From NCBI GenBank assembly GCA_000980375.1, contig LARD01000005.1:194251-258250 (forward strand): a stretch of 64,000 bases of DNA, in the 5' to 3' direction. The stretch comes from Clostridium sp. K4410.MGS-306 (lineage in GTDB: Bacteria > Cyanobacteriota > Vampirovibrionia > Gastranaerophilales > Gastranaerophilaceae). Position 1 is the first letter of the stretch. Every line of letters begins with the position of its first letter. The notes beneath the pieces are model-generated. The model did no database searches. It was not told the origin of the DNA and was given only the letters and a program-made list of their open reading frames with translations. Below, piece by piece: positions 28,849 through 64,000 of this stretch. The position numbers were made by a program, and so were the translations under genes.

Positions 28849-30078
28849 CTATTTGATAAACGGATTAGCTGAATTAGCGTTTAAAAGTGATGCTGAACCT
28901 GCTGCTTGTTTATATTGGTTCATATCGTAGTTGTATCCGTTAAATCCCGGTACAACAGGTACTCCGTTGAAAACACCGGTTGAAATATTACTATTGTTTT
29001 TATTAATCTGTTGTTCTACATTCTGTGTAGTTTGTGCTGTCTGGACTTGTTGTGCTGCTTGTGCATCCAAGATGATTTTTTCTGCTGTTGCTTTAGCCAT
29101 TAATGCTTCTTCATTTTTTGGATCTTCTGCAAGTATAGATTCTGCTTGTTTAAGTGCTTCTTGTGCAAGTACTAATTTTGTAGCTGGATCATTTTCAACC
29201 TGAACAGTTGTTTCTTTAATAGCACTTTCTTTGGCCAATTCGATTTCAGACTTGCCGGTGATTGCTTTTGCTGTTTTTGCAGCAACTGCTCCGCCAATAG
29301 CACCACCTATAAATCTACCTAAGAAACCGCCAATTGCTGTACCTACGCCAGGGCATATTGCAGTACCGATTGCTGCACCTACAGACATACCGAGTGCATC
29401 ACCTGCTAACCAGCCTACTGCTCCAACGCCTACTTCTGTACCGGTTTTAGCAATTTGTTTCATACCTGATTTAAAACCTAATTGTTGGAAAGCGGGTACA
29501 ACATCAGTAAATGTTTTTATTGTACCATCCATTACTGCCATAAAACCTGCACCGGAACGTCCCATAGCTTTACCAAAACCTGTTTCTCTAAGTCTTGCGT
29601 ATCCGGGAATTTTGTCCATTAATTTTCCCATACCAAAGGGAAGTCTTGCTTCGTTAGGTGTAGTTCTTGATTTAAAGAAATCTCCGTATTCTCTGTTTAA
29701 GAAGTCTCTTCCTGCGTTAACAGCCTGACCTCTTGTATATGGATATTGTTTTTTTACATTTTTAATTGTTTCAGAAAAATTCCAACCTTTAGCTGTGCCG
29801 GCTTTTCTCGCAGCTTTAAAGTTTTCAAGTTCTTGACCTGAAAGACCATTGTTTTTTAAAGCTCCGATTCCTTGAAAACCGCCCATAATACCTGCAAAAG
29901 GCAAAACTCCAACAGCTGTTTCCACAACACCAGGTTCTTGAACAGTTGCAATAGGTTCTCCGTTAGTGAATTTTATCAGGTTTTGTATTTCATTTTTATT
30001 TAAAACTACAGCACCGGAAGCTGCTCTGTATGCTGCCGGATATGGATTATAGTTGTAACCTGAAACACTATTCATCAT
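28849..30078 (-). CDS. Glycine-zipper protein with a Tyr/Asn-rich N-terminus, function unknown
   Basis: A 409-residue protein of no recognised family. It opens with a short Asn/Tyr/Pro/Ala-rich tail (SGYNYNPYPAAYRAASG) and continues with a basic region. A central run of small residues (about 225-290) shows glycine-zipper spacing (GDALGMSVGAAIGTAI, GGFLGRFIGGAIGGAVAA), as in membrane-inserting or pore-associated proteins. After an acidic helical stretch with TPR-like composition the tail is Gln/Asn-rich. No Sec signal is present. I chose ATG 30078 (AGGTAG upstream) over a distal start at 30180. Confidence 0.6.
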   Translation of the reverse strand: MMNSVSGYNYNPYPAAYRAASGAVVLNKNEIQNLIKFTNGEPIATVQEPGVVETAVGVLPFAGIMGGFQGIGALKNNGLSGQELENFKAARKAGTAKGWNFSETIKNVKKQYPYTRGQAVNAGRDFLNREYGDFFKSRTTPNEARLPFGMGKLMDKIPGYARLRETGFGKAMGRSGAGFMAVMDGTIKTFTDVVPAFQQLGFKSGMKQIAKTGTEVGVGAVGWLAGDALGMSVGAAIGTAICPGVGTAIGGFLGRFIGGAIGGAVAAKTAKAITGKSEIELAKESAIKETTVQVENDPATKLVLAQEALKQAESILAEDPKNEEALMAKATAEKIILDAQAAQQVQTAQTTQNVEQQINKNNSNISTGVFNGVPVVPGFNGYNYDMNQYKQAAGSASLLNANSANPFIK

Positions 30079-30237
30079 AACTTTAACTACCTGTAATAAA
30101 TCTAACCTTACATATATAAAAACAATTGAGTTAAATAAATTTCCTCTAAAATACAAAATGTAAACAAATGTTAACAACATGGCAAAAATTCATTATCATC
30201 TGTTTTATATTAGTGACAGAAGTGGTGGAATTCTCAT

Positions 30238-31806
30238 ATGTTTGTTAATAACAATTTTAATCGTTTTAATTTCAAAGCCGCAGCAAATGCCGCACAATCA
30301 GATAATAACGGAGAAGTTCGGACAAGGAATCTATACGCAAATGATATGCATGGCATTTTGAGCGGTTATAGAAAAATGATTACAGTAAGAGACAGATTTG
30401 AAGCAGAAAACAAAAAGAATCCTTCTATTATTGCTTCTACCTATCTTTCAGGTGACGGTAATGTTGGTGCAAACAGGCAAAAAAATAAACTTGTGATTGC
30501 TTTGGAAAATTTTATTAAACCAAGAGCAAAAGCACCTGGAAATCACGATTTTGATGATCAAGGCTCCAAAGGTTTGTCAGAGCTTCTTGATGCATCTAAA
30601 GTGAAAACTCTTGCTTTGAATCTTGTAACAAAACCAAACTCTGCTTTGCAAGATGATATGGATGCAGGCAGATTGGCAAAATCAATGATTTTTGAAGAAA
30701 ACGGACAAAAATTCGGGGTTATAGGGTTAATACCTTCTGATTTATTTAAAAGAATAAACCAACAAAGTAAAGATAAAAGCAAAGATATTGATGTGCTTAA
30801 TCTTCAAGACACGATAAAAGCTGTACAAGATGAAGTTAATAAAATGGAAGCACAGAATGTAAACAAAATTACTCTTGTATCTCATATGGGTATAGATGCT
30901 GACAAAGAAATTATCAAAAACGTTGTAGGTGTTGATATTGTTCATGGCGCTCACTCTCATGATCTGCTTAAAGGGCTTGTTCCTGGCGAAAACTATTTTA
31001 TATCAAAGCGCGGCGAGCCTGTAATTATGACACAAGCCGGCAAAAACGGACACTGGTATGGCATACTGGATGTTGTTTATGATAAAAACGGAAAAATCAT
31101 AAAAGCCAAAAACGATGTAAAATCTCTTGATGATGAGACTGACAGCTTAAAAGCAGTTGTGCTTGAAAAAATGATGATTGGTGAACCTAAAAAAATCGGT
31201 GAACTTGCTCATGATGTAAAATCAATGCCGGAAACAATTCTGGATGAAAATCCAATGTGCTCTTTCCTTTGTGATGCTTACAAAAAACTTACGGGTGCTG
31301 ATATTGTTTTAAACAATGCAGGAACAATGAGAAATACCCTGCATAAAGGCGATGTTACTGACCGTATGATTATTGATATGATGCCTTATTACAATAATAT
31401 CTCAACTTACAAATTGAGTGAAAAAGATATTGTAGACGCTATAAACAGCGGTATCGAAGCTACTGCGAAATATCACAGAACAGGTGCTTTGCAGGTTGCA
31501 GGCATGTCTTATGTAATAGGCAAGAACGGAAAAATTAAAGAAGCATACCTTCTCAAAGATGACGGCACTAAAGAATCTATGAATGTACAAAACCCTAGAG
31601 CCGATAAATTCTATACTGTTGCATACAATTCTTTCCTTGGTGGAGGTACAGACGGTTTAGAAATGCTTCACGCTCCGGAAAAAATGATTAAAACCTTTGA
31701 TGCAAATGAAACAGACCTGTTGATAGATTATTTTAAAACCTTTGATAACAAACCTCTATCCATAGATAAAACCGGTAGAATCACTCGTGAAAAGAATCAG
31801 GTATAG
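30238..31806 (+). CDS. 5'-nucleotidase/UshA-family metallophosphatase without a Sec signal
   Basis: A 522-residue two-domain enzyme. The metallophosphatase domain has the five metal-binding blocks: NLYANDMHG (residue ~32), LSGDGNVG, APGNHDFD, LVSHMGID and VHGAHSHD. The C-terminal nucleotidase domain carries NNAGTMRNTL, DMMPYYNNIST and VAYNSFLGGGTDG. Family members hydrolyse nucleotides, UDP-sugars or cyclic nucleotides, usually in the periplasm. Here the N-terminus is MFVNNNFNRFNFKAAANAAQ rather than a signal peptide. The 3' end overlaps the convergent AsmA-like gene by 26 bases. Confidence 0.85.
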   Translation: MFVNNNFNRFNFKAAANAAQSDNNGEVRTRNLYANDMHGILSGYRKMITVRDRFEAENKKNPSIIASTYLSGDGNVGANRQKNKLVIALENFIKPRAKAPGNHDFDDQGSKGLSELLDASKVKTLALNLVTKPNSALQDDMDAGRLAKSMIFEENGQKFGVIGLIPSDLFKRINQQSKDKSKDIDVLNLQDTIKAVQDEVNKMEAQNVNKITLVSHMGIDADKEIIKNVVGVDIVHGAHSHDLLKGLVPGENYFISKRGEPVIMTQAGKNGHWYGILDVVYDKNGKIIKAKNDVKSLDDETDSLKAVVLEKMMIGEPKKIGELAHDVKSMPETILDENPMCSFLCDAYKKLTGADIVLNNAGTMRNTLHKGDVTDRMIIDMMPYYNNISTYKLSEKDIVDAINSGIEATAKYHRTGALQVAGMSYVIGKNGKIKEAYLLKDDGTKESMNVQNPRADKFYTVAYNSFLGGGTDGLEMLHAPEKMIKTFDANETDLLIDYFKTFDNKPLSIDKTGRITREKNQV

Positions 31807-34800
31807 AATTCAAAAAATCTGGCTGGGCTGATGGTTGTGATGGCTTTTGTTCATTATTTTGTTCTGTCAAAATAGCAGGTGTTTGCTTTTCAGCAGCGGC
31901 TTCTTTTTGAGATATAGCTTTTTTCTTTGTGCCTGTTGGATTTACCCAGGTAAATGATTTTACAGATTTTACACTGTCAGGGTCTCCTTCTATTACCACA
32001 CGGAAATTTTTTGTCTGATATCGATAATCCGGACTCAACGCAGGAATTCTTGAAATATCCATTTCCGGAATTTCTGTATTAAAAGAATTGAATAAATTTG
32101 CTATGGCTGGTCCGTATTTTGTATGTTCATCTAAAAAGTCTTTTATTGTTACAGTGCCTAAAAGTCCCATAGAGCTTGAAACTTCTGAGGAGACTCTGCC
32201 CAAAATTTGTAAATCTGTATAATTAGTCAATAAATTAATGCTGCCTGTTATATACATACTCATTTGTGGACCTGATGTAAGGACGGGGTTAAGATGTGCA
32301 TAACCTGACGAAAATTTAATCATACCTTTTAAATATGTTACATAACCCGTATCCTTAGGGCTAATAGCCTGTTTTGCACTGTTAAGGCTGGCGTAAATCA
32401 GCTTTTGTGAAAGTAAATTTTGAGCATATAAAAAGTGCTCGAATCGTCCGAGAGGACCTAAATGTCCGTTTTTGACGAGAATATCGGCTCTTCCTTTTAA
32501 CGTTTTCATTTGTTGTTCAAAGCTGGTGCCAAGCATATCTACAGAAGCATCAAAGTTCAACCTGCCTGAAATTTTCTGGTCTCCCGGTAAAAAATCCTTT
32601 GCAGCAGAAGCCGCATCCATGTTTCTTCCCTGTATATCGGCATGCAACGAGTTGTATGGGAAATTGTATGTTATATTTCCGGCTGCTTTTCCTCCGTATG
32701 CATCTGCAAACATTTTGTTTATGAGCAAGATATTCTTTTTGGATGATATGTCTGCCGAGATATTCTCTGCTTTTATCTGACCGGTTTTAAAAGATTTTAT
32801 GTTCACTTTTCCTGTTTTAATGATAAATGGAAATTCTGTTCCAGGACCGTATTTTGCTTGTTCAAATAATGGCATTAATGCCATAAGATAATCCATATCA
32901 ATATATTGTGAGTTCAGCTTAAGATAATTGATGTTGTTTGTCTGAAGTGCATCTGTAGGCGCAATAGCTTCTATCGAAACATCCATGCTTTTTATTTTTA
33001 GATTATTTATTTGAGCATTGATAAAAGATTTGTTTAATGAAAGTGCAATATTTTGTGCTTTTATAAAGTATTGAGGTATTAATACATCTGTTAAAAGTAT
33101 ATTGCCATTAACATTAGGTTTTTGTGCTGTACCGTTTATTATTAAATCTGCAGTTAAATCGGCTCTGGAATCCTTAATTTCCGGTAAAGATATATTCAGC
33201 TTGTCTTCTGTTGATATATGAAGATTTTCAAGCTCTGCAACAGTTGCATAATTTTTTATTTTTCCTTTAACACTTATTGCTTTTTTTAGTTTGTTTTTAT
33301 TGATTGTTTTTGTCAGTCCGTTTATTCCGTTAGCATAAAATATGGAAATATCATCAATTGTTAAATTTGAGCCTTCCAATTTTGCTTCTGCACTAGTGAG
33401 GGTGTTTATTGCCGCAAAACTGTTGATATGAAGTGGTGTAATGTAGTTTGAATGATTTGCCAGTATGTCGATTTTGATTTTTTGTTCTCTGCTGTTTCCT
33501 GTTACTGAGGCTTTTATGGGCAAATACCCCTGTGCAAAGAGTTTTATATCTTTGGGTGCAAATGTTTTTAACAATGCTGTATCTACTGTGCCGGAGGCAT
33601 TTATATTAATTGTAGGAGATTTTAAATAGTCGGTTATATTTCCTGACAATACAATTTTTGCATTGCCAAGGTTAATTTTGCTCGGGTTGATAGTCAGTGT
33701 TTTGTTGTCAAATTTTGCGGATAAGACCTGTGATTTTATTGTGTTTGATGAATTTGGTATGTTTTTTGATACACACAAAATGTCGTTTAGTGTGACAATG
33801 CCTGAATAGATGTTCTTGTCGGTTTTGGCATCTATTAATAATTCACGAATACTGATCTTAATATTATTAAGGGTTTCTGTCGCATTAAAATTGGTGATAA
33901 GCGCATTAATTTGAGGCGCAGCTTCTGTTAGCTTTCCCTGAATTTTTGTTGTAAAAGACAATTTGCCGCTTTTTACAACGAGATTTTTTTGAGGTTTAAG
34001 CATAGGGAATGCGTTCATAATGTGGTTTAGATCCAGATTGTTTGCACTTATCAAGATATTCCCGTTGGCCTTGGAATCAATTGTTCCTTTAATTTTTACA
34101 GGCTGCTCATTTACCAGAACATCGGATTGTTTAATTTTTATGTTGTCATTGGAAAAGTCTACCAATGCATTTATTTTGTTGATTCTAAGAGGTATGCTTT
34201 TGTGCGCAATATTTGCATTGTTAACTTTAAGGCTGCCGTTAGAGTGAAGCGTTTTGAAATTTGTTTGTACTTTAAAGTCTGCACTTATAGTTCCGTCTGC
34301 TTTAAATTCGGTTAGATTATTTTTTATTTTTAAAAGCTCAAGAACTGAAATTGTAAGCTTTTGTAGATTTGATATACTGGCCTTGGGGCAAAGGCATTTC
34401 ATATCTATTTCATAGGGTTTTGTAATTTTAACATTTGCATTTATATCAGTGCTTTCATTTTTGGCCGTATAAAATTTAGAGACTACAGTTGCTTTACCTT
34501 TATCAAGATTTATGTGGAAAAAACTAGGTGGCAATGTTTGATTGCCGATTTTCATTGTGAATTTATCGATATCAATTTTTCCACTTAAATATTTAAAATT
34601 GTTGCCTTTTGCATGCACTTTCAAATCTGCATTCAAATTTGCAAAAAGATTGTACTTGTAAAGCTCGTCCGCAGTTATATCAAACATTTTTTTATGTATG
34701 TCAATAAACATTGACTTTGGCACGGCAAGTTTGAGGTTATATTTTACATACCTTTTGTCAAAACAATAAAAATCACCGCTGCTGTCAAAGTTTACGTAAT

Positions 34801-35353: not shown

Positions 35354-35444
35354 TACCTCACTCCTTACAAATTATATAATAAATTTTAATACCTGTCATT
35401 ATTGTGATATAGTGTTAAGAAACCAGTTTTAACGGGGTAGGTTT

Positions 35445-36335
35445 ATGAATTATTATTCAAACAAATTTGAAAAGTCTGTAGAAGGTAAATTAAAAAACTT
35501 TTTAGTACAAGACGGAGCCGAAATATCTGCACAGCAGAACGCTATTTGGCGTGCGCGTACATCAAAATATTCTGCTATTTTTTATAACACAGGAAAGTTC
35601 TTGATACAGGGCTCTGATGTCAGCGAGATATCAAAAAAGGTAGAAGAATTTTTAGGAGTTTCGTCTTCGTCATCTGATGTGTGCGCAAGGCAAAATCTTT
35701 CTCAAAATGTTCCGTTAAAACACATTGGCAGCGACGAATCAGGCAAAGGTGATTTTTTCGGGCCTCTTGTTATTGCAGGGGTGCTTGTTGATGAGTCTAA
35801 CATAGAAGTTTTGCAAAAAGCCGGAATTAAAGACTGTAAAAAAGTTGATGACAAAAATATTAACAAACTTGCCGCCATAATAAAAAATAACTGTACTTTT
35901 TCTGTAATAACAATAAACCCGGCAAAGTATAACGAGCTTTATGCAAAGCTTAAAAATCTAAATCTGCTCCTTGCCTGGGGGCACGCAAGAGCCATTGAAA
36001 ATATACTGGAGAAAAAAGATTGTGATTATGCACTGTCGGACAAGTTTGGTGATGAAAAACTTATCCAAAATGCGCTTTTAAAAAGAGGAAAAAATATACA
36101 TCTGGAGCAGCGTTGTAAAGCTGAAAGTGATATTGCGGTTGCAGCTGCTTCTATTCTTGCCCGAGCACATTTTCTTTCAGGGCTTGCTGAAATTTCTGTT
36201 AAATATGGCGTAGAAATTCCTAAGGGTGCTTCGGACAAGGTTTTGCAAACTGCTAAGAGTATCAGTGAAAAATATTCTAAAGATGAATTGAAAAATGCTG
36301 TAAAAACTCATTTTAAAACTTTTAGTCAAATATAG
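35445..36335 (+). CDS. rnhC: Ribonuclease HIII
   Basis: A 296-residue RNase HIII. The N-terminal TBP-like domain (about 1-85) is followed by the RNase H2-type catalytic domain starting IGSDESGKGDFFGPLVIAGV, in which Asp and Glu of the first motif replace the DE(A)GRG of RNase HII. SDKFGDEKL and CKAESDIAVAAASILARAHF supply the remaining carboxylates. It cleaves RNA in RNA/DNA hybrids. A GGGGTAGG ribosome site precedes the start. gcvT follows after 79 bases. Confidence 0.95.
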   Translation: MNYYSNKFEKSVEGKLKNFLVQDGAEISAQQNAIWRARTSKYSAIFYNTGKFLIQGSDVSEISKKVEEFLGVSSSSSDVCARQNLSQNVPLKHIGSDESGKGDFFGPLVIAGVLVDESNIEVLQKAGIKDCKKVDDKNINKLAAIIKNNCTFSVITINPAKYNELYAKLKNLNLLLAWGHARAIENILEKKDCDYALSDKFGDEKLIQNALLKRGKNIHLEQRCKAESDIAVAAASILARAHFLSGLAEISVKYGVEIPKGASDKVLQTAKSISEKYSKDELKNAVKTHFKTFSQI

Positions 36336-37938: not shown

Positions 37939-37947
37939 CGTTATAAA

Positions 37948-46060: not shown

Positions 46061-46357
46061 ATGAGTATTGAGCCTTTAAATTTTTCAAATAACAAATATG
46101 AATTGACTGGAAATGAGCAAAATACCGTTACTCAAAAGAAAGATACGATAAATAACGTCATGAACCCCGACAATAGAATTGTTGAAGATGAATCCTACAA
46201 AACAAATAGCGAAGCAGATAAAGAAAAAACAAAATCTGATGAAGGAGAAAAACTTTCTTTTAAAGACCGCTGGCAAAATTTTAAAGGCAAACTACACAAA
46301 ATACTGCATAAAGAAAAAAAACAACCAAAAGACAAACCTCATATTGCTGAAAAATAA
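46061..46357 (+). CDS. Small charged protein, function unknown
   Basis: A 98-residue, highly charged and probably disordered protein: MSIEPLNFSNNKYELTGN start, an acidic middle (EADKEKTKSDEGEK) and a basic C-terminus (KGKLHKILHKEKKQPKDKPH). No signal peptide, membrane segment or known domain is seen. The Asn/Phe-containing N-terminus is faintly like other proteins of this window. It is alone on the plus strand and followed by a bidirectional terminator. Confidence 0.5.
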   Translation: MSIEPLNFSNNKYELTGNEQNTVTQKKDTINNVMNPDNRIVEDESYKTNSEADKEKTKSDEGEKLSFKDRWQNFKGKLHKILHKEKKQPKDKPHIAEK

Positions 46358-47333: not shown

Positions 47334-48776
47334 TTATTCTTTTATATTCTTTTTTGTAATAACAAAGTTTTCTACCAAATTTGCAAGAGCAGGAGTTGGG
47401 GTATCTTTGCCATTTATATTGAGCTGAATTTCTGTTTTTAAAAACCTTGCGTAGTCCATGTTATAGACTCTTCCATCTGTGTCTATATATCTTTGCATAA
47501 TCAAAGGAGCTCTTCGTGCATTTTCTTTGTAATAATTTATTACTTGCGGTGTAATTTTTGCATGGTCTTGCAATCTTGTTGTTTTAATATTGTGATCTTT
47601 TATGAACTGTGCCATACGGCCTGATGAGTTTAGTCCTGTATCTATTACAGACAGTTTATTTTCAAAAATATTATAAAACTTATTCAGATCTTCTTTGCTT
47701 TTAATGACTTTTTGTTCTCCTGCCAGGTCTTTTGTATACATATCTTTTAGTTTTTTCAAGACTTCCTGGCATAGTAAAATCAAATCATTTGCATTAAAGT
47801 TTTTTGTGCTTTTTTCTGACGGATGAAATGCCCTTAAGAGAACTGAAAACTTGGGGCTTTGTGCAATCGGTGTAAAAGTAAAAAGAGTGTTTGCCATATC
47901 TGAAACAAAACGTTCTCTTAATCGTAATGCTTTTTCTTTATCACCTTTTTCCATTGCTTTTACGGATGAAATATAGCTCTGATTAAAGACATTGAAAGAG
48001 ACATTAAAAGCGTTAAGCTTTTCCATATTTTGGCTTTGGGCAAAGTGCTTTGCATATTTTTCGGCCCTTTGCTGTAATTTTGTATTATTTTTGTACCATC
48101 CAGATGTGTCGAAGGCAGTCTTTCTTCCTAGAGAATCAAATAATTCTGTTGATAAATCAATAAAGTCAAATTCCCTGCCTTTTTTATTTTTTAAAGCTAT
48201 ATCCATGCAATCAGCGTCATAAAAAAGCTCTGTTGTCCTGTATATTATTTGATCTTTTACGTAGGGAAGATTTTCACCATAGATATCTATGTTGTGGAGC
48301 CTTTTTCTCAAGGTTTTGAATCCGTCTGTAATTGAATGAAAGTCTTCATAAGTCATTTCTCTTTTAGATGGTTTTGCATCAGCATAGCAATAGCCGCACA
48401 TTTTTTTGCAGCCTCGTTTAACAGCTATTACATGCAAATTTTCACACAGGTATTGGATTTCTTTTATACTCAAATCCTTAAAAACCTTTATGTTGTATTG
48501 AATTCCTTCAAGCGGTTCTAGGTTGCATTCTCTAAATGTGAATTTGTCTTTTCCCCATTCGTGGTCAATAAAGTCTTTTAATTTATCAGCATATTTTTGC
48601 GCTTTTCTATATGTTAAGTAACCCGCTATTTTTTGAGCAGGATTAAAACCCTTAAAACTTACACCGGATACTGGTTTTGTCGTGCAAAGCGCTGTGGTTG
48701 AATATCCAAAGTTGTTATTTCTTTGATAATTTTCGGGTTTGGTATATGTATTGTTTTTTATAGATGATATTTTCAT
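47334..48776 (-). CDS. Unusual radical-SAM-like protein with an Asn/Phe-rich N-terminal tail
   Basis: A 480-residue protein. After a ~45-residue tail (NNNFGYS at 21-26, VSFKGF at 39-44) and a helical segment comes RGCKKMCGYCYADAKPS. Cysteines 123, 127 and 130 form the CX3CX2C motif that holds the [4Fe-4S] cluster of radical-SAM enzymes. The rest has little similarity to named subfamilies that I can recognise (no SPASM-like cysteine cluster; a DIYGENLP segment may take the place of the GGE motif). The reaction and substrate are unknown. No peptide precursor gene is adjacent. It ends at the attenuator-like hairpin. Confidence 0.65.
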   Translation of the reverse strand: MKISSIKNNTYTKPENYQRNNNFGYSTTALCTTKPVSGVSFKGFNPAQKIAGYLTYRKAQKYADKLKDFIDHEWGKDKFTFRECNLEPLEGIQYNIKVFKDLSIKEIQYLCENLHVIAVKRGCKKMCGYCYADAKPSKREMTYEDFHSITDGFKTLRKRLHNIDIYGENLPYVKDQIIYRTTELFYDADCMDIALKNKKGREFDFIDLSTELFDSLGRKTAFDTSGWYKNNTKLQQRAEKYAKHFAQSQNMEKLNAFNVSFNVFNQSYISSVKAMEKGDKEKALRLRERFVSDMANTLFTFTPIAQSPKFSVLLRAFHPSEKSTKNFNANDLILLCQEVLKKLKDMYTKDLAGEQKVIKSKEDLNKFYNIFENKLSVIDTGLNSSGRMAQFIKDHNIKTTRLQDHAKITPQVINYYKENARRAPLIMQRYIDTDGRVYNMDYARFLKTEIQLNINGKDTPTPALANLVENFVITKKNIKE

Positions 48777-55541: not shown

Positions 55542-56969
55542 TTATGCAGCCGGTGTAATTACATTTAATCTGTTATTTTGCAAGGCATTTTGTACTTCTT
55601 GCTGCGATTTTGTATCTTTATATACCTGCATCAGCTCTTTCCAGGCTTCCACAAACTCAACATTGTCAATTAATACTGATTTTGGTATGCCGGCATGGTG
55701 AATTTTGGGTAACAATTCTGCAACATGGTATGTTATTGGTTCAGATACTCCGTCATCTGTGTCGTTGCAAACAAAGTATTTGTTGCCTTTTTTATCTTTT
55801 TCTATTCCTGTAATGGTAATTTCATGGCCGCCAATTACATTATTGTCGCTATCACAGTAAGTGTAACCGATAATTACATTATCTCCGCCTTTGATAGTAT
55901 TTTCTATGTGTTCAAGAGTTTCATTTTGCTCACATTCATATCCTATCAGTTTGCCATTGTCATCAATTTTTTGATATGTTACGCAAACTTTGCCTTTGCC
56001 CGTAGCCAATTCTTCTGCAAAGTTCTTTTCTATATCAATAAGTCCGCTATCGTCATCATTGTATTTTGGTATTCTTCTGTCTATTAATGAATCATAGGTG
56101 TTTTGTGCGCCTATATTCATAAATGTTGATTGCATTAGAACATCTATTACCGAGCGTTCGTCTTTATCTTTATATTTATTTTGTATTCTGGCTCTTATTA
56201 TTGCATTTTTATCCGGCTTCAGATTAACTTTTAGAGTTTTCCAGTTTTCCATTTTGTGCTCTGTTCCAAATTCGTTAAGCATCCATATAGTATTCATTAA
56301 GCCTTGTGACAGGTCGTCCACATTAATGTTTTTTGTAACACAAATGTTTTCAGACGTAAGTCCCTCTGCCATTCTTGCAAATTCTGCCGGCATTCTGTGT
56401 GCAATATCAAATTCAATACTTGCAGCTGGGCATGTGCTGGATTTTACATCAAGGTCATGTGCTGTAATATTTTTGCCCTGGCGTTTTTCTTCATTAATAA
56501 TATCAGCCTGAAGAGCAGCAGGAATATCACCAAACTTTTGCGTAATAATATATGGTTTATTTATCGTTTTTATTACATCTTCAATAATATTTTTTGCATC
56601 CAGTCCCGAAGCCCTTGGTGTAGTGGCAATTTTGTATAAATTATCCAGAGTTGTTGACCTGTCATTGGAATTTGTACTTAAAAGTTTGCCTTTTTTCAAC
56701 AGTTCATTTAGCTCTTTTTTTACTCTTTTATCTAAAATAGCGGAAATTTCATTAAATTTTTGATGCTCATCTCTTCCAGAAAGCGATGTTCTTATCTGGT
56801 AAGAACCAAAATTGGGCGAGGCTTTACGCATAAAAGAATCATAGTTTGTAAAACCAGGATTTGTTACAAAGCTTGGCGCAGCACTGTTTTGCTTCACGGC
56901 ATTTATCGGGTGCTGCAAATGTAGATTGTATTTATTATTTTCAATGTTAAATAATGATATACTATTCAC
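55542..56969 (-). CDS. Predicted papain-fold (C39-like) protein with an Asn/Phe-rich N-terminal tail
   Basis: A 475-residue protein of no named family. A ~60-residue tail rich in Asn, Ser and Phe ends in SPNFGSYQIRTS. Later, STCPAASIEFDIAHRMP (Cys180) and GGHEITITGI (His382) followed by YFVCNDTDDG (Asn402/Asp403) reproduce the Cys-His-Asn/Asp order of papain-like and C39-type bacterial cysteine peptidases. Such proteins include bacteriocin processors, YopT-like effectors and surface peptidases. The start is GTG with GGGCGG upstream and TATAAT further up. The ~200 residues between Cys and His are unusually long, so the assignment is tentative. Confidence 0.55.
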   Translation of the reverse strand: MNSISLFNIENNKYNLHLQHPINAVKQNSAAPSFVTNPGFTNYDSFMRKASPNFGSYQIRTSLSGRDEHQKFNEISAILDKRVKKELNELLKKGKLLSTNSNDRSTTLDNLYKIATTPRASGLDAKNIIEDVIKTINKPYIITQKFGDIPAALQADIINEEKRQGKNITAHDLDVKSSTCPAASIEFDIAHRMPAEFARMAEGLTSENICVTKNINVDDLSQGLMNTIWMLNEFGTEHKMENWKTLKVNLKPDKNAIIRARIQNKYKDKDERSVIDVLMQSTFMNIGAQNTYDSLIDRRIPKYNDDDSGLIDIEKNFAEELATGKGKVCVTYQKIDDNGKLIGYECEQNETLEHIENTIKGGDNVIIGYTYCDSDNNVIGGHEITITGIEKDKKGNKYFVCNDTDDGVSEPITYHVAELLPKIHHAGIPKSVLIDNVEFVEAWKELMQVYKDTKSQQEVQNALQNNRLNVITPAA

Positions 56970-57079: not shown

Positions 57080-58090
57080 TTGATAAAAGATATCGATTTT
57101 AGTAAAATTAAATTTATACCCGCTTCGCCTGAAGATTTAATACTTGCTTTAGACAGGCTAACGCGTTTTAAGTATCCTGAAATTAAGTATTATAGAGTTT
57201 TTTCAGAGCTTCTTTGCAAATATTTTAAAGAGCCTCGTCTTTCTAAAAATCAAATAAAAGATATGGATACTGCTGTATTAAAACGACTTGTTGAAATTTT
57301 TTGGAATGAGTCAGTATCCAAATACACTCCGGCTGTAAAATCTGATAAACAATTGAATGAGCTGCTTTTAAAGGAGCTTTATGACACTTATAATCTTTCG
57401 CAAGAGGTAAAAATCCTGACTGATATAAATATCAATATAAACGGTGTATTGGCTTTGATTTCTGACAAAAACAATTTACCTCTGAATTTAAAAAGATTGG
57501 CTGTAATTGAACATGACCATCAAAACCTGATTGAAAAACGTCAGAAGTATGGTTTGAGGTTTCCTGTTGAAAAAGTTGTTTTATGCGAGGGCATTACAGA
57601 AGAAATTCTTTTGCCAAAGTTTGCTAAGCTTTCGGGTTTTGATTTTGATAAAAACGGAGTAAAACTGATAAGTGCAGGCGGAAAAAATCAGGTTGCGAAG
57701 CTGTATTGTGAACTTAAAGATGAGCTTAAAATTCCAATTTTTATTCTGCTTGACGCAGATGCAGTTGAAATTTCAGAAAAAATCAATTGTGTTTTAAGAG
57801 ATACTGACTCAATGTATCTTATCTGTCACGGTGAGTTTGAGGATATTTTTTCTTTAAACCTTATTAAAAGGACAATAAATAAACGTTTTAAAAATATTTG
57901 TGAATGCTGCATTGCTGATTTTAAACGCAATGAACCAATGACAAAAACTCTGTCTGAATTTTACCGCTTGCATGAGCTTGGTGATTTTCAAAAAGCTGAT
58001 TTTGCAAAGGAGCTGGCGCAAAACCTAAAGTATGAAACTGATTTAACTGATGAAATAAAACAAATCGTAGATAGAATTAAGATACTATAA
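57080..58090 (+). CDS. Stand-alone OLD-type TOPRIM protein
   Basis: A 336-residue protein starting at TTG. The N-terminal ~160 residues are helical and unassigned. Then comes a TOPRIM domain: VVLCEGITEEILLPKFAKLS (catalytic Glu170), GVKLISAGGKNQVAKL, FILLDADAVE (Asp225, Asp227) and GEFEDIFSLN. This is the arrangement of the C-terminal nuclease of OLD-family ATP-dependent endonucleases, but no ABC ATPase precedes it in the gene or upstream. It may be a nuclease working with a separate ATPase or a relic that works alone. No ribosome site is obvious before the TTG. Confidence 0.65.
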   Translation: MIKDIDFSKIKFIPASPEDLILALDRLTRFKYPEIKYYRVFSELLCKYFKEPRLSKNQIKDMDTAVLKRLVEIFWNESVSKYTPAVKSDKQLNELLLKELYDTYNLSQEVKILTDINININGVLALISDKNNLPLNLKRLAVIEHDHQNLIEKRQKYGLRFPVEKVVLCEGITEEILLPKFAKLSGFDFDKNGVKLISAGGKNQVAKLYCELKDELKIPIFILLDADAVEISEKINCVLRDTDSMYLICHGEFEDIFSLNLIKRTINKRFKNICECCIADFKRNEPMTKTLSEFYRLHELGDFQKADFAKELAQNLKYETDLTDEIKQIVDRIKIL

Positions 58091-58094
58091 AATA

Positions 58095-58126
58095 TAAAAA
58101 GGCCTCCGGTTGGAGACCTTTTTTGT
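58095..58126. terminator. Bidirectional terminator between the TOPRIM gene and the diguanylate cyclase
   Basis: AAAAAGGCCTCC pairs with GGAGACCTTTTTT (one mismatch) across a GGTT loop. Both strands end in U-rich tracts. Confidence 0.85.
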
Positions 58127-58134
58127 TTTATGAA

Positions 58135-59016
58135 TTAGTACTCTATATTTATCTGTGAGAACTGAACAATTTTGTTTTTGCCGCGTTTTTTTGCGTTGTA
58201 TAAGGCATGTTCAGCGTAGCGGATAAGAGTGTTGCCATCCTCTTCAACATTTTGCAGGAATGGATAAGAAGCAATACCGCCGGAAATAGTAATGGGGTGT
58301 CTTTCTTCTTCTCCGGCAGGAATAAATTCCATTTTTTCAATTTCTCTTCTGAATCTTTCTGCAAAAATAAACGCATTTTCTTCCGGTGTATTGGGCAGAA
58401 GTACAATAAATTCTTCGTCACCATAGCGTGTTAAGATGTCTTCTTTTCTTATAAAGCCCTTTAGCATTTCTGCAATTTTTTTGAGCAATACATCGCCCCA
58501 GTCATAACCGTACATATCGTTTACAACTTTAAAGAAGTCAATGTCTAACAATAAGCAACTTAATTTTGTATCATATCTTTTAGAACGTGAAATTTCTGCT
58601 TCAAGGCGTTCATGGAGAAATCTTCTGTTGTGAAGACCGGTAAGAGCGTCTGTTGTTGATACCTGATTAATAGTTTCTTTAAGCTCTTTAATTTTTAAAA
58701 GATTTTTGAGTCTTAAATTTAGTTCTTTTTCATCAAGCGGCTTTGATACGTAGTCGTAAGAGTCGCCTCTGAATATAATTTCATCATTAAACTTGTCTGC
58801 CACAATCAATGCAGGTGCAACAAGCTTTGTTACCATAGAGATTTCTTTTAATTTTTCATCAGAACAGTCAAAAACTATTACTGATGGGTTGAATTTTTGT
58901 GCATCTTTTACTTCTTCAATATTTTTTACTCTTACATCACAATCATCATTATTTGCACTAAGAGTATTTTCTAATTCTGCAGAAGCGTTGTCACTGAAAA
59001 TTACAATATTTTTCAT
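58135..59016 (-). CDS. Diguanylate cyclase with receiver-like domain, variant GDEEF motif
   Basis: A 293-residue protein. The N-terminal domain (about 1-110) resembles a receiver (Asp50 in VIVFDCSDE, Lys92 in YVSKPLDE), but the first acidic pocket is weak (IFSDNAS). The GGDEF domain begins at DALTGLHNRRFLHERLEAEI. The signature loop reads RYGDEEFIVLLP (GDEEF, residues 199-203) instead of GG[DE]EF. The allosteric I-site RKED (190-193) is exactly five residues upstream. LLLDIDFFKVVNDMYGYDWGD supplies the other metal/GTP residues. Cyclic-di-GMP synthesis is likely but not certain. Confidence 0.85.
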   Translation of the reverse strand: MKNIVIFSDNASAELENTLSANNDDCDVRVKNIEEVKDAQKFNPSVIVFDCSDEKLKEISMVTKLVAPALIVADKFNDEIIFRGDSYDYVSKPLDEKELNLRLKNLLKIKELKETINQVSTTDALTGLHNRRFLHERLEAEISRSKRYDTKLSCLLLDIDFFKVVNDMYGYDWGDVLLKKIAEMLKGFIRKEDILTRYGDEEFIVLLPNTPEENAFIFAERFRREIEKMEFIPAGEEERHPITISGGIASYPFLQNVEEDGNTLIRYAEHALYNAKKRGKNKIVQFSQINIEY

Positions 59017-59144
59017 AACAATTATCCTTGTGTTTCCTATTATAAATATAATACCAAATGTCTTAAGAAATGTATATAACTCAAATGAACCAAAATACTA
59101 ACATTCCTTCAAATGTAGTATAGAATAATAAAAAAATTGAGATT

Positions 59145-60344
59145 ATGATATATAATCATAGACTATTGGGGGATATTGCTTTGGCCAGGCCACAGTACAA
59201 GATTGATTACAATCAAAGATATGCTTATACAACTGATCAAAAGAAATATGCAAACAATGTAAGACCTGCTGTTCCTCGCAGAAAAAAACAGCAGATAAGA
59301 AAAACAAACCCGCTTGCATTGATATTCCAGGTTTTGTTTGCAGTGCTTTTTATAATGCAGGTTGCGCCTGTTTATATGGATAAAGTTACTCGCCCTGTTT
59401 TTTTGCGTGTAAATAAGTATCCTGCTATTCAGGTCGATGTAAATGCTATTTTGAGGCCGACATCTTTGTATTTGCACAACAGCCATTTTATGGGTGTAAA
59501 TTTCCTTTCCGGTACTGAAACTGCAAAACCGCAAATGCAAACGTTATATGAAACTTTCCATATGCATGACTTGGAAAATAACCTTAAATTTCTTGCCTCT
59601 AAATATCCTTCTTTAAAACCATCTGTTTATGTATGGGAGTATGAATCTGGCAAGCATGCCGATATTAATTCAACAGAGGTTTACCCTACTGCAAGTATTA
59701 TAAAAATACCTGTTTTGATACAACTGTTTCGTTCGATTGAAGCCGGTATGCTCAAGCTCGATGATAAAATAGCAATGACGCAATATTATAAATCAGAAGG
59801 CTCTGGTAGTTTGCAGTTTAAAGGCAACAATGCAATCTATACAGTAGATGATTTGGCAAGAGTTATGATAACAGAGTCTGACAATTCTGCAACAAATATG
59901 TTGATGGATGCTACAGGCGGTATGAATGCTATGAACCAATCTTTGAGAAAATGGGGAATGAAAGAAACAAGAGTAAATGACTGGCTGCCTGATTTGCAAG
60001 GTACAAACGTCACTACTTCTAAAGAAATGGCAACATTGCTGTACAACATTGATAATCCAAATTTCCTCTCTCTTAATTCCAGAGAAAAAATGGTGGATTA
60101 TATGAGCCATGTCCACAATAACAGGCTTATTCAGGCAGGATTGCCATCTGATGCAATATTCATTCACAAAACAGGTGATATAGGCAAGATGCTTGGAGAT
60201 GCCGGTATTGTTTACACACCTAACGGCAAAAAGTATATTGTTGTTATGCTCGTAAACAGACCTTATAATTCACCACAGGGAAAAGATTTTATAGTTGCAG
60301 CTTCATCATTAATATACAATTATATGGTTAACACCAATTTGTAA
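59145..60344 (+). CDS. Class A beta-lactamase-fold serine hydrolase, membrane-anchored, without Glu166
   Basis: A 399-residue protein with a basic cytosolic N-terminus and one membrane segment (about residues 57-74). The penicillin-recognising domain has TASIIKIPV (Ser184-x-x-Lys187), ITESDNSATNM (SDN, 245-247) and FIHKTGDIG (KTG, 342-344). Where class A enzymes have WEPELN (Glu166, Asn170), this reads DWLPDLQG: Leu281 and Gln285. A true deacylating beta-lactamase is thus unlikely; a DD-peptidase or penicillin-binding role fits better. A TTG at 59181 with GGGGGAT upstream is an alternative start after a TATAAT at 59150-59155. Confidence 0.8.
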   Translation: MIYNHRLLGDIALARPQYKIDYNQRYAYTTDQKKYANNVRPAVPRRKKQQIRKTNPLALIFQVLFAVLFIMQVAPVYMDKVTRPVFLRVNKYPAIQVDVNAILRPTSLYLHNSHFMGVNFLSGTETAKPQMQTLYETFHMHDLENNLKFLASKYPSLKPSVYVWEYESGKHADINSTEVYPTASIIKIPVLIQLFRSIEAGMLKLDDKIAMTQYYKSEGSGSLQFKGNNAIYTVDDLARVMITESDNSATNMLMDATGGMNAMNQSLRKWGMKETRVNDWLPDLQGTNVTTSKEMATLLYNIDNPNFLSLNSREKMVDYMSHVHNNRLIQAGLPSDAIFIHKTGDIGKMLGDAGIVYTPNGKKYIVVMLVNRPYNSPQGKDFIVAASSLIYNYMVNTNL

Positions 60345-60417
60345 TTGCGTATTGATATTGCGTTGTTCTTATATTATAGTTTATATATAGTGAATTTTAG
60401 AATATTCGGAGAAAAAT

Positions 60418-60666
60418 ATGACTCATCAAATAATTAAAGTAGCGTGGGACCTCAACGAAAACTGCGAAAACAGATATCAACTGGTTTATGAAATTGCAGA
60501 ACTTGCTAAAAAACTCGTTGATGAATATCAAATGAAAAAGCCTAAAGATGAATTGGGCTTTGATGATTATGGTTTTGATAACAGCTCTATTAAAAAAGAA
60601 AATCCTGTTGAGCATGCCATTATGGTTAAAGCTTCCGAATCTGACGAAAGCAGACTCGTAGGTTAA
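60418..60666 (+). CDS. rpoZ: Putative RNA polymerase omega subunit (divergent)
   Basis: An 82-residue protein. ENRYQLVYEIAELAKKLVDE (about residues 16-35) resembles the omega signature NR[YF]xLVxxAxxRAxxL. NPVEHAIMVKASESDES near the C-terminus recalls the KPVxxAIxE segment of omega. The basic R-A-R patch is missing and a Gly/Asp-rich insertion separates the two parts. Size and a CGGAG ribosome site support a real gene. Omega assists RNA polymerase assembly. The assignment rests on short motifs and could be wrong. Confidence 0.45.
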   Translation: MTHQIIKVAWDLNENCENRYQLVYEIAELAKKLVDEYQMKKPKDELGFDDYGFDNSSIKKENPVEHAIMVKASESDESRLVG

Positions 60667-60687
60667 TAAATAAAAATTTTCTTTCAA

Positions 60688-60720
60688 CAAAAAAGCTCTC
60701 TAATTTAGAGAGCTTTTTTA
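60688..60720. terminator. Bidirectional terminator between the omega-like gene and rpsT
   Basis: AAAAAAGCTCTCT and AGAGAGCTTTTTT form a perfect stem across an AATTT loop, with U tracts on both strands. Confidence 0.9.
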
Positions 60721-60734
60721 AACCAATTTATTAA

Positions 60735-61004
60735 CTATTTTGCTAACAATTTGTTAACAGCAAGAGTTAATCTTGATTTTTTTCTTGCAGCAGTGTTTTT
60801 GTGCAAAACACCTTTAGAAACAGCTTTGTCACACAGTTTGTATGTGTGGCTGATAGCTGGTTTCAATTCTGCTTCGTTTTTGGCTTGTGCTAATTCAAGA
60901 GTTTTTCTGATTGCAGTTTTGATTTCAGATTTTACAGCAACGTTTTTCAATCTGTTTCTTTCTGCAATAAGTACTCTTTTTTTAGATGATTTAATGTTAG
61001 CCAT
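60735..61004 (-). CDS. rpsT: 30S ribosomal protein S20
   Basis: An 89-residue, basic, three-helix S20: MANIKSSKKRVLIAERNRLK at the start, SEIKTAIRKTLELAQAKNEA, and KGVLHKNTAARKKSRLTLAV in the last helix. It binds 16S rRNA early in 30S assembly. GAAAGGAAAAC precedes the ATG. A 5-bp hairpin (GGGCG/CGCCC) sits in the leader at about 61033-61049. Confidence 0.97.
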   Translation of the reverse strand: MANIKSSKKRVLIAERNRLKNVAVKSEIKTAIRKTLELAQAKNEAELKPAISHTYKLCDKAVSKGVLHKNTAARKKSRLTLAVNKLLAK

Positions 61005-61350
61005 TTTGTTTTCCTTTCATTTGCATTTCTTCGGGCGGTATTTACGCCCCCCTCTGAAATCTGCAATGAGGTTTGGTGAGTAATATTATTATAATCTAAC
61101 AAGTTTTGATTACAAGAGGTGTTGATACTGAATATTATGTTTTTATGTTGTTGTAATATTTTATGATTACAGTATTGAATAGCTCTACAAATAATTAAGC
61201 TTAACAATTCTTTACAAGTGTTTCAAATTCAATAATAATGCCTAATAGCATAGCATAGCTTGCAATAATTGTGACTTAGACAATTTCAATTTTATTGGTG
61301 TTTTTAAAAATATGTAGATGAAACTTTTTATTAAAGAAAGGATGGTAATT
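61005..61350. other. Divergent intergenic region between rpsT and a hypothetical gene
   Basis: About 345 bases without a convincing gene. It holds the rpsT leader with a GGGCG-GTATTTA-CGCCC hairpin (about 61033-61049), AT-rich sequence that probably includes both promoters, and a short TAGCA-type tandem repeat near 61246-61260. Short frames here lack start signals. Confidence 0.6.
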
Positions 61351-61659
61351 ATGGTAGCAGCATTAAAGTCAGGAATTAAAGCATTTGCTAATGCAGTTAG
61401 AAGAGAAGCAGTACAAAATAAAAAGTTTACAGAAGAATTAGTTTATAATCATGGAATTCGTTCTGAAATTACACCAAATGCTTTAAAAGGAATTACTAAA
61501 GATATGTTTACTCCTGCAGGAAAATTGTCCGAAAGCGGTTCTAATGAAGTCAAATCGATAATTAAGGAGTTTGGGCTTTCTCAAAATGCAACTTGGTCAG
61601 ATATTTTATCTGCGTTGGTAAATATTAAAAAGAATGCACCTTTAGTTCATAAAATATAA
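61351..61659 (+). CDS. Hypothetical protein
   Basis: A 102-residue protein, not recognised. It begins with an amphipathic, basic helix (MVAALKSGIKAFANAVRREA), then a mixed segment (NHGIRSEITPNALKGITKDM) and a C-terminal helical part. No signal peptide or catalytic motif is visible. The ATG at 61351 has AAAGGA upstream; an in-frame ATG at 61318 would add 11 residues without a ribosome site. It ends shortly before a bidirectional terminator facing ftsZ. Confidence 0.6.
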   Translation: MVAALKSGIKAFANAVRREAVQNKKFTEELVYNHGIRSEITPNALKGITKDMFTPAGKLSESGSNEVKSIIKEFGLSQNATWSDILSALVNIKKNAPLVHKI

Positions 61660-61672
61660 ATATAATACTCTA

Positions 61673-61707
61673 TAAAAAAGACTCGCTAGTTAGCGAGTCT
61701 TTTTTTG
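61673..61707. terminator. Bidirectional terminator between a hypothetical gene and ftsZ
   Basis: AAAAAAGACTCGCTA and TAGCGAGTCTTTTTT form a long perfect stem with a tiny loop and U tracts on both strands. Confidence 0.92.
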
Positions 61708-61717
61708 TTTATATCCG

Positions 61718-62926
61718 TTATTTCTGTAAAAACGGAGGAATATCAATAATGCTCATCAAATCATTTTGTGATTTTTGAGGTGAAATTGCCGGTTTTGGCT
61801 GAGGTGTGCTTGGTGCCAGTGAAGGAGCACTGTTTGTTGCAGATGCACTGCCTGTGTTAAATGAACCTGAGAAGAAATCAGCAGCACTTAAAGATTTAGC
61901 TGCTTCTTTTTTACCGGTATCAGGTGTTTTCATCTCAAAACCTGTTGCAATAACTGTGATTTGGATTTCTCCCTGGATTCTGTCATCAATAACAGAACCG
62001 AACGTAAAGATAGCATCTTCAGCAATTGCATCATGAATTACCTGTGCAGCTTCTGTTACTTCGTGTAATGTCATGTCAGAACCGCCAGTAACATTCATAA
62101 TAATACCGGACGCACCGTTAATAGATGTTTCAAGCAATGGTGAATTGATAGCGAGTTTAGCTGCTTCCATAGCTCTGCCTTCGCCTGTACCTCTACCGAT
62201 ACCCATTAAAGCAGAACCGCTTGATTGCATTACAGCTTTAACATCGGCAAAGTCTACGTTAATCATACCTGGTACTGTGATGATGTCAGATATACCCTGT
62301 ACACCTCTTAACAATACTTCATCAACAACCTGGAATGCTTCTTTCATTGTTGTTCTTCTTTCAACAACTTCAAGCAGTTTGTCGTTAGGTATAACAATGA
62401 GAGCGTCTACAGTTTCTTTTAATTTTTCAAGACCCTGCATAGCCTGATTCATTCTTCTTTTACCTTCAAAGCTGAAAGGTTTTGTTACAACACCGATTGT
62501 CAAAGCGCCTAATTCTTTTGCTATTTTTGCAACAACAGGAGCAGCACCGGTACCTGTACCTCCGCCCATGCCTGCAGTTACAAACACCATATCAGCACCG
62601 TCAAGTGCTTGTACAATCTGGTCTCTTGTTTCTTCAGCAGCTTTTTCACCAACTGAAGGGTCTCCGCCGGCGCCAAGTCCTTCTGTCAATTTACCGCCTA
62701 ATTGAATTTTGTTTTCTGCCAAAGACATTTTTAATACCTGAGCATCTGTATTCATTGCCCAGAAGTCAACGCCTGTAAGGCCTGCTTTAATCATTCTGTT
62801 AACAGCATTACCGCCGCCGCCTCCGGCGCCGATTACTTTAATGTCTGCTACATTTGATACTTGCGGAGTTTCCGTGTCTTGTTCTTTGTCTCTTCTGCCG
62901 AAGATATCTGGTCCGAAATTTTCCAC
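61718..62926 (-). CDS. ftsZ: Cell division protein FtsZ
   Basis: A 402-residue tubulin homologue that polymerises at midcell. The GTPase core shows [16 protein letters not shown] (about 31-46), [19 protein letters not shown] (tubulin signature, ~115-133), the T7-loop segment [11 protein letters not shown] and [14 protein letters not shown] Ser/Ala/Pro-rich linker leads to the C-terminal peptide [10 protein letters not shown] that binds FtsA/SepF-type anchors. The start is GTG at 62926 with AGAGGAAAA upstream. No other division gene adjoins it. The leader is long and contains a possible 14-codon ORF. Confidence 0.98.
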
Positions 62927-63340
62927 TTATTTTCCTCTTTCAATCTAATCTTTTTTACCGAAAGGTATCTAATCTAGTGTCGACATTGCCGACTCAACTT
63001 CTCGAGCCGTCATTGACTCACCTTTTCAATTGACACTCAAAAAATCCGTTCACGTCACGTTGTTCCTTATCACGAATTTTTCTCGGACATTTTTTATTAC
63101 AACTTACTCATTATACTATTTTAAAAAAATTAAATAGTAAAGAAAATTAAGATATTTTAATACTTTTTTTAATATAAGTTAAAGATTCTCTTAACAATTT
63201 TTTTTTATGATGTATCATAAAGACATGTCATCTATTCATGATTAAATTTGTTTACATTACTTAATAAATCATGGGAATATGCGCAATTTTTTATATTTTT
63301 AATTGTTTTTAAAAGTACATAGTGTGTTTAAGGTGGGGAC
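62927..63340. other. Divergent intergenic region upstream of ftsZ
   Basis: About 410 bases. On the minus strand a TATAAT box near 63110-63115 suggests an ftsZ leader of ~180 bases. That leader has short inverted repeats around GTCGACA/TGTCGAC-like and GAGTCGG/CCGACTC sequences and a candidate leader ORF. The part from 63120 to 63310 is very AT-rich and probably holds the promoter of the plus-strand gene. No other gene is evident. Confidence 0.5.
62969..63013 (-). CDS. Candidate 14-residue leader peptide upstream of ftsZ
   Basis: MTAREVESAMSTLD is encoded from an ATG at 63013 with AAGGTGAG 5 bases upstream, a better ribosome site than that of ftsZ itself. It stops 43 bases before the ftsZ GTG. 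It could be a regulatory upstream ORF. Such a short frame can easily occur by chance. Confidence 0.25.
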   Translation of the reverse strand: MTAREVESAMSTLD

Positions 63341-64000
63341 ATGAAAGTTCAAGGAAATTACAATCAATACTCTGCGGCGCGCTCAAAACAGCAATCGTTC
63401 GGCAATTACGTTAATGCCCGCAGAATTAACAGGGCTGTTGGCTCTATGATGAGTGGAAAAACAAAAACACTTTATACTCTTGGTAAAAATAATGGAGAAA
63501 ATTTAAACAATACTGTTACTGCAGTTGGTACGGCAGCTGTTGCTCCAATATTTATTCGCTACAATCCGCTTTCTGATGAAGATCCCAAAGTTAAAGCTTA
63601 TTCAGCTCTTAGACAGCCACTTTCTGCCGTATTAGCTCTTGGTGTTCAACTTCCGGTTATGACAGCTTACAATAAACTTCTTGATATGTGGGCAACTTCA
63701 GGAAGGGTAAGAAGATTTGATCTGAGTGCAAAACCTCCTGAAACAACTCTTAAAAACCTTGCTAATGCTAGATACAACCAAGAAATGAGGGTTTTAAAAG
63801 CACAAGGTCTTTCTAAAAAAGAAATGGATGAAAAATTCTTTAAAGGCAGAACAAAAGCAGAAGTAATCGAAGATTTTGTAAATCAATCCAGAGATGATAT
63901 TTTCTACGCCAAAAGAGATCATCTTCGTGAATTGGCAGCAAATGGTCAGCCGATAACTGTTGCTCCGCTACGAGATGCGAATGGTAAAATTGTTGATTAT
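63341..64000 (+). CDS. Asn/Phe-tailed hypothetical protein, 3' end beyond the window
   Basis: The first 220 residues of a longer protein, not recognised. The N-terminus MKVQGNYNQYSAARSKQQSF continues GNYVNARR, like other tailed proteins here, with no Sec signal. Two weakly hydrophobic stretches (TVTAVGTAAVAPIFIRYN at about 58-75 and LSAVLALGVQLPVMTAYNK near 94-112) may be membrane-associated. A charged helical region follows, with NARYNQEMRVLKAQGLSKKE. AGGTGGGG, 4 bases before the ATG, is a strong start signal. Confidence 0.6.
   Translation, partial: MKVQGNYNQYSAARSKQQSFGNYVNARRINRAVGSMMSGKTKTLYTLGKNNGENLNNTVTAVGTAAVAPIFIRYNPLSDEDPKVKAYSALRQPLSAVLALGVQLPVMTAYNKLLDMWATSGRVRRFDLSAKPPETTLKNLANARYNQEMRVLKAQGLSKKEMDEKFFKGRTKAEVIEDFVNQSRDDIFYAKRDHLRELAANGQPITVAPLRDANGKIVDY

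Follow-up and report, generated by a model that had tools for sequence, protein, structure and literature searches.

Several proteins encoded in a 64,000-nucleotide stretch of Clostridium sp. K4410.MGS-306 (contig LARD01000005.1, positions 194,251 to 258,250; hereafter the window), a member of the order Gastranaerophilales, begin with polar N-terminal tails in place of a Sec-like start, and raise the question of whether these tails are a common signal and, if so, what reads it. The original prediction described an Asn-rich tail ending in a Phe motif (F-G or F-K) on otherwise unrelated proteins, and proposed it as a lineage-specific targeting, secretion or docking signal. All five proteins that it listed sit at the coordinates given, and four of them carry the shared tail, whereas the glycine-zipper protein does not clearly do so. 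We consider it very probable that the tail is a real signal; as to what reads it, we tentatively favor a flagellum-independent type III export system common to Gastranaerophilales.

A Phe motif is enriched at the N-termini of Sec-less proteins

The 5'-nucleotidase-like protein of the window has a relative with 78% identity in a Candidatus Gastranaerophilales metagenome-assembled genome (G001), a partial genome from which we stitched 1,447,547 bases and called 1312 proteins with a simple gene caller of our own. Start sites were refined by a ribosome-site score; the caller still misplaces starts, and it cut short the window proteins at 55542-56969 and from 63341. Proteins with no hydrophobic 15-mer in residues 1-60, a hydropathy threshold applied with no signal-peptide predictor, were taken as Sec-less. 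The motif [SN]-F-[KGT]-[GAS] occurs within residues 2-60 in 40 of these 1012 G001 proteins, compared with a mean of 11.7 and a maximum of 22 in 300 shuffles, and the 40 proteins fall into 34 BLAST families. Its frequency declines from the start, with 20/1012 in residues 2-21, 13/1012 in residues 22-41, 8/1010 in residues 42-61, and 0-0.6% of proteins per 20 residues beyond. Internal 60-residue segments of the same proteins carry it in 11/880, 6/730 and 6/578 cases, and the last 60 residues in 13/1012. It is present in only three of 300 hydrophobic (Sec- or transmembrane-like) N-termini, and in none of the 91 conserved G001 proteins (those sharing at least 55% identity with a protein from a 420-kb sample of a second genome, G002). 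In G001, no comparable N-terminal peak is seen for altered motifs in which Tyr or Leu replaces the Phe or an acidic residue stands on either side of it. Shuffled and housekeeping N-termini, either of which could have proved equally rich, both carry the motif less often than the Sec-less proteins.

An excess is also seen in other samples. The motif is present in 10 of 279 G002 proteins (shuffle mean 3.5, with one of 300 shuffles reaching 10); the excess over the interior is modest because the internal background is high (7/225 over residues 82-161). A third pool, comprising loci from six further genomes of the order together with G002, has it in 8/129 proteins (shuffle mean 1.7, with none of 300 shuffles as high); judged by sequence, one of these eight is a ribosomal protein. 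No motif was found among 180 proteins in 20 stretches from 13 genomes of the class lacking FlhA, a control to which we give little weight because it is small, differs in composition, and has few motifs inside its proteins too. Two other tallies are set aside: enrichment calculated from the longest possible open reading frames was obscured by signal peptides and by translations of non-coding DNA, and a position weight matrix count (58 matches versus 10.1 expected) is not a test because it was fitted on the same data.

The tailed proteins also share features outside the motif. Starts of the type M[KRQ][IVL] are found in 12 of the 40 tailed proteins versus 58 of 972 other G001 proteins (p 5.6e-6), and M.[IVL]..[IVLMF] starts in 13/40 versus 75/972, an enriched class that is yet a minority. 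In 33 tails, Asn is raised relative to other N-termini (12.0 versus 7.1%), as are Ser, Thr, Pro, Gln and Tyr, and Glu and Asp are reduced. The distance from the start to the Phe is variable; it lies at residues 5-12 in 10 of the 40 proteins, at residue 19 or earlier in 20, and at residue 30 or later in 16. The F-G/F-K consensus first proposed captures part of the motif but is too narrow, since K, G and T all follow the Phe, as do A and S in the papain-like proteins of the main clade. It should be widened to approximately [SNPA]-F-[KGTAS]-[GAS], which often follows an M-[KRQ]-[IV]-like start.

The Phe is conserved within families and borders the folded domain

In the papain-like family, the motif column of 111 aligned rows holds F in 85 and Y in 14, preceded by S (66), A (17) or N (14) and followed by G (52) or K (16). 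The start x-N-I-S is conserved, and the stretch between it and the motif varies in both length and letters. A second tailed family, represented by L063:9716-11467 of G001, has F in 80 of 82 rows (the other two being gaps), followed by K (65), T (6), G (5) or R (3) and then by G (62), S (14) or N (4); it matched no solved fold at E<=0.001. Members of the radical-SAM-like family have the Phe (F41 of the window protein) in all 99 aligned rows, and their M-[KRQ]-[IV] start is nearly fixed, with K, R or Q at residue 2 in 94 rows and I or V at residue 3 in 96. A further motif proposed for this protein, NNNFGYS, is not conserved, its F column being a gap in 90 of the 99 rows.

The 5'-nucleotidase is more variable. 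Among 30 loci, 19 orthologs have an N-terminus readable with the pattern used and the other 11 do not; the motif is not universal here, because F-[GK] is present in nine of the 19. Loss of the tail from orthologs had been named as a reason to abandon the proposal; three families mostly keep the motif, but only about half of the 5'-nucleotidase orthologs do so. We place the motif at the border between disorder and fold because the AlphaFold models of the papain-like protein and the second family have pLDDT (predicted local distance difference test) values below 50 over residues 1-57 (F54) and 1-33 (F31), respectively. The positional enrichment with its controls, the retention of the Phe in hypervariable tails, and the spread over 34 families together give good support, at the level of sequence, to a lineage-specific N-terminal signal that appears to be kept by selection; the secretion role included in the original prediction is not established by them.

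Gastranaerophilales encode a second type III system

A match to FHIPEP (FlhA/SctV) is present in all eight genomes searched within the order and in 94 of 146 drawn from the class, and FliP and FliF are found together in 23 of 23 chosen Gastranaerophilales genomes. Flagellin, MotB_plug and FlgD occur in the same five of these 23 and are missing from the 18 others that keep FliP and FliF. FliP, FliF and full-length FlhA are each present in two copies in the five flagellated genomes; the 18 non-flagellated genomes have one FliP each, and 17 have one FliF (G036 has an extra weak match). We use the label T3SS-2 for the type III set common to the order. FliP, FliQ, FliR, FlhA, the FlhB family and a FliI-type ATPase are all present, and we infer that the FlhB-family protein belongs to T3SS-2 and not to the flagellum. 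Flagellated G001 has a flagellin-like gene near a FliF-FliI run, and its FliO, FliP, FliQ, FliR and FliMN-like genes are grouped; no Pfam match was obtained for the 116-residue protein that separates FliQ from FliR. The run in genome G014 (Table 1) was assigned by Pfam for the rod proteins and transglycosylase, by search for FlhA and FliF, and otherwise by position and likeness to scanned G001 and G002 genes.

The FlhA of this system (FlhA-2) falls under the cut-offs of both established types. It scores 694.1 in G001 and 673.1 in G002 (with a shortened start) against the flagellar equivalog TIGR01398 (cut-off 772.1), which the flagellar FlhA of G001 passes with 843.5, and 588.9 against the SctV injectisome equivalog TIGR01399 (cut-off 692.25); FliE passes its flagellar model. 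FlhA-2 is 78-83% identical to that of G001 in 50 further main-clade genomes and 60-68% identical in 17, whereas the FlhA proteins of 23 more distant class members are 41-47% identical to it and flagellar FlhA 36-40%. Conservation at 78-83% does not have the look of decay.

Several genes connected with this system are themselves noteworthy. Eight of eight genomes encode a stand-alone FlhA C-domain as a protein of ~490 residues that has an N-terminal part of its own (L076:7881-9341, L110:8539-10020, L112:8711-10171, L117:8725-10203); it might act as a soluble cargo receptor. Four main-clade genomes have another match to the FlhA C-domain (44-50% identity), within open frames of ~600 residues (G042:C9:81059-81679, G054:C8:86721-87344, G050:C3:13760-14401, G066:C2:139417-140046). 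An SLT transglycosylase without a Sec-like start adjoins FliE and rod-like genes (L091:2955-3635, L109:6796-7413) and is perhaps itself a type III export cargo. The position of FliG in the run is taken by a conserved protein of 319-365 residues (L106:11912-12892, L108:7233-8249, L111:11484-12581, L109:10066-11025), which has no Pfam match at E<=0.01 in the three copies scanned (L106, L108, L109).

Tailed families accompany FlhA-2

Among 146 genomes of the class, 68 have FlhA-2 (at least 60% identity) and 67 the papain-like tailed family, with 65 having both and 76 neither; FlhA-2 is alone in three (G049, G137, G150) and the tailed protease in two (G046, G160). These were counted from match rows, and some of the protease matches are weak. 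The second tailed family, searched in 40 genomes, gave weak matches in 10 of 17 with FlhA-2 and in G160, and in none of 14 with another FlhA or eight without FlhA. FliK of G014 has SFKA at residues 13-16; FliK is a classic type III substrate.

In the order, 97 of 98 genomes contain relatives of the 5'-nucleotidase. The papain-like gene is upstream of a 5'-nucleotidase gene on the same strand in at least 44 of 51 genomes, and the matches are separated by 17-324 bases in 43 of these and by 1439 in one; the two genes are ~22 kb apart in G001 and ~24 kb apart in the window. Papain-like proteases and 5'-nucleotidases of the UshA type usually lie outside the cytoplasm. Of 20 G001 candidates scanned singly, four pass a Pfam cut-off, comprising a starch-synthase-like, an mTERF-like and two AAA proteins, one of the latter with an M41-like stretch under its own cut-off.

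Tailed proteins of the window

The window proteins and their tails are listed in Table 1. No Pfam match was obtained for the papain-like protein, and its fold matches to papain-like proteases are weak (best E 3.6e-4, with low TM-scores); several homologs of the radical-SAM-like protein carry a listed Pfam radical SAM match. For the protein starting at 63341, the G001 ortholog has AFKA in its tail and the G002 relative TFTG, and all have the same MKV start. The Tyr version of the motif proposed for the glycine-zipper protein could not be established, as its 65% identical G001 ortholog has no F-[GK].

Table 1. Tailed proteins of the window and the T3SS-2 gene run of a related genome
Feature	Position	Strand	Details
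Tail, residues 1-28, of the 5'-nucleotidase-like protein	30238..30321	+	Motif N-F12-K-A (NFKAA)
5'-Nucleotidase-like enzyme, no Sec-like start	30238..31806	+	Pfam 5_nucleotid_C, 67.6 bits, over cut-off
Tail, residues 1-46, of the radical-SAM-like protein	48639..48776	-	Motif V-S-F41-K-G (SFKGF)
Radical-SAM-like protein	47334..48776	-	Radical_SAM 14.6 bits in the window copy, under the 29.5 cut-off
Tail, residues 1-57, of the papain-like protein	56799..56969	-	Motif P-N-F54-G-S (NFGSY)
Candidate papain-like cysteine protease	55542..56969	-	Weak fold matches; usually directly upstream of a 5'-nucleotidase gene in relatives
Tail, residues 1-24, of the protein at 63341-64000, which runs past the window end	63341..63412	+	Motif Q-S-F20-G-N (SFGNY)
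Tyr-rich start of the glycine-zipper protein (28849-30078), doubtful member	30016..30078	-	No F-[GK]
T3SS-2 gene run of G014			Two FlgE/F/G-type rod proteins, FlgB-like, FlgC-like, SLT transglycosylase without a Sec-like start, FliE, FliF, two unassigned genes in the FliG place, FliH, FlhA, FliI

Two other window genes are of note. A small protein at 46061-46357, left out of the counted set, has a polar start, and its G001 relative has NFKG at about residue 70. The gene at 59145-60344 codes for a class-A beta-lactamase-like protein (Beta-lactamase2, E 1.7e-63) that has a membrane segment and a start bearing positive charge, and it scores under the NCBIfam beta-lactamase cut-offs listed.

Discussion

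What might read the tail? The reading we hold most plausible, at a confidence a little short of even, is that the tail is a two-part N-terminal export signal recognized by the flagellum-independent T3SS-2. It takes up four observations, namely the signal, its conservation, the machine and the distribution of that machine, from which we infer that the machine would read the signal, and likewise the docking site and the destination of the proteins. The first part would lie at the extreme N-terminus and consist of a few small hydrophobic residues, in many cases M-[KRQ]-[IV]; the second would be [SN]-F-[KGT]-[GAS] bordering the folded domain, with a disordered spacer of variable length linking the two. 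The Phe motif may dock at the cytoplasmic face of the export gate, on FlhB-2, the FlhA-2 C-domain or the stand-alone FlhA-C paralog; the N-terminal residues would open the FliPQR gate; and FliH and FliI would assist the passage of the unfolded chain through a short rod of FlgB/C/F/G type. That the 5'-nucleotidase and papain-like protease have no Sec-like start, despite types usually found outside the cytoplasm, counts for export.

The closest known parallel is in the flagellum, where the gate recognition motif has the general form FxxxPhi. Passages of Bryant et al. 2022 (PMC8983047) describe early rod and hook subunits as needing a hydrophobic N-terminal signal and, ~24 residues on, a Phe-led gate recognition motif, which is FLTLL in FlgD. 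Like the subunits in those passages, the tail is disordered, has small hydrophobic residues close to its start and a Phe-led motif farther along, and lacks a cleaved signal; a FlhA/FlhB/FliPQR-type gate is likewise encoded in the genome. In contrast to the flagellar motif, with four hydrophobic-anchored positions after its Phe, the tail has [SN]-F-[KGT]-[GAS], and it is borne by enzymes and proteins of no known kind instead of structural subunits. Injectisomes secrete unrelated proteins through uncleaved, disordered, polar N-terminal signals, for which we know of no tight common motif; the tails differ in having one Phe motif in common, as does FlhA-2 in scoring below the SctV cut-off.

Parts of the gene set have been seen before. 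Passages of three papers on Gastranaerophilales (Di Rienzi 2013, PMC3787301; Soo 2014, PMC4040986; Utami 2018, PMC5877343) report incomplete flagellar gene sets, with an export apparatus and rod and no filament, and interpret them as flagella that are partial or have been lost; for ACD20, Di Rienzi 2013 lists two flhA genes. Utami 2018 (PMC5877343) reports partial gene sets and names a secretion-system scan in its methods, with no type III result in the passages available. The gene kinds in T3SS-2 are the same as in these published passages, but here they form a separate, strongly conserved second system that stands beside the flagellar set in five flagellated genomes. The titles and abstract openings listed by searches of the open literature (subscription papers being outside this scope) contained no description of such a tail or of a non-flagellar type III system in these bacteria.

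A number of points weigh against export through T3SS-2. The motif is not the flagellar FxxxPhi, an identity that we rejected because the residue at F+4 is hydrophobic in only 14 of 40 proteins; in the papain-like family this column is mostly Q, S, T or P. With the Phe at residue 19 or earlier in half of the 40, the spacing is shorter than flagellar subunits would allow, as those passages describe them. FliK of G001, identified by position, is without the motif; a loose pattern fails in 10 of 30 papain-like loci of the order; and 10 of the 19 readable 5'-nucleotidase orthologs are without F-[GK]. Among the tailed proteins are several that look like cytosolic enzymes (radical SAM, AAA, starch-synthase-like), T3SS-2 was read from genes of related genomes and not from that of the window, and the model leaves passage across the outer membrane unaccounted for. 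The co-occurrence of FlhA-2 and tail fits a link and is no proof of one, because both follow a single clade and are confounded by descent.

Because several tailed proteins look cytosolic, the main rival is an intracellular docking tag, in which diverse enzymes would be brought together in one place in the cell, with no export, through binding of the Phe motif to a scaffold or membrane-associated adaptor. The radical-SAM-like, AAA-type and starch-synthase-like members would function in the cytosol, a single short Phe motif beside a folded domain is typical of docking motifs, and the Phe can lie very near the start (residues 5-12 in a quarter of the proteins). We nonetheless regard such a tag as rather unlikely: the members include a 5'-nucleotidase and a papain-like protease, types usually found outside the cytoplasm, and the extreme N-terminus is also conserved within families and enriched in type, which docking alone would not need. 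No scaffold candidate turned up, though no search was aimed at one. Export by another route, such as a type IV-pilus-like or type I-like machine, or vesicles, would suit the same cargo types, and type IV pilus genes are reported in passages on a termite-gut member (PMC5877343). It seems to us improbable, as gut types have no type I system according to passages of Di Rienzi 2013 (PMC3787301), and by eye no prepilin-like or glycine-rich repeat pattern accompanies the tail.

It could also be that the tails have no shared function, being AT-driven low-complexity sequence in which the Phe merely packs on the first element of each fold. Asn-rich tails in AT-rich genomes, the position of the motif at the fold border, the high internal background of G002, and the fact that family conservation alone is compatible with packing would all agree with this. 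It is nevertheless the least probable of the explanations and scarcely credible to us, since shuffled N-termini and internal segments of the same proteins have the motif less often, the neighbors of the Phe are restricted on both sides and the Tyr, Leu and acidic versions give no comparable peak, the M[KRQ][IVL] start type is enriched along with the motif, and the 91 conserved proteins have no motif.

Taken further, export through T3SS-2 would mean that Gastranaerophilales of the human and animal gut have a type III system of a third kind, distinct from both flagellum and injectisome, with a two-part label of its own (hydrophobic start, variable spacer and [SN]-F-[KGT]-[GAS]), and that it may send dozens of mostly unknown proteins, including those of the papain-like protease/5'-nucleotidase gene pair, outside or into neighboring cells; this wider proposal we hold as possible and somewhat doubtful. 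If this is true, the secretome of a gut-bacterial order with little-known host interactions could be read from sequence by its address code, and the reported incomplete flagella would be a working secretion machine. It would also provide a natural test of type III cargo recognition, with a signal that is short, modular and common to 34 families of a single partial genome. Whether or not this machine is the reader, it is unusual for a sorting motif to be shared so widely in one bacterial lineage.

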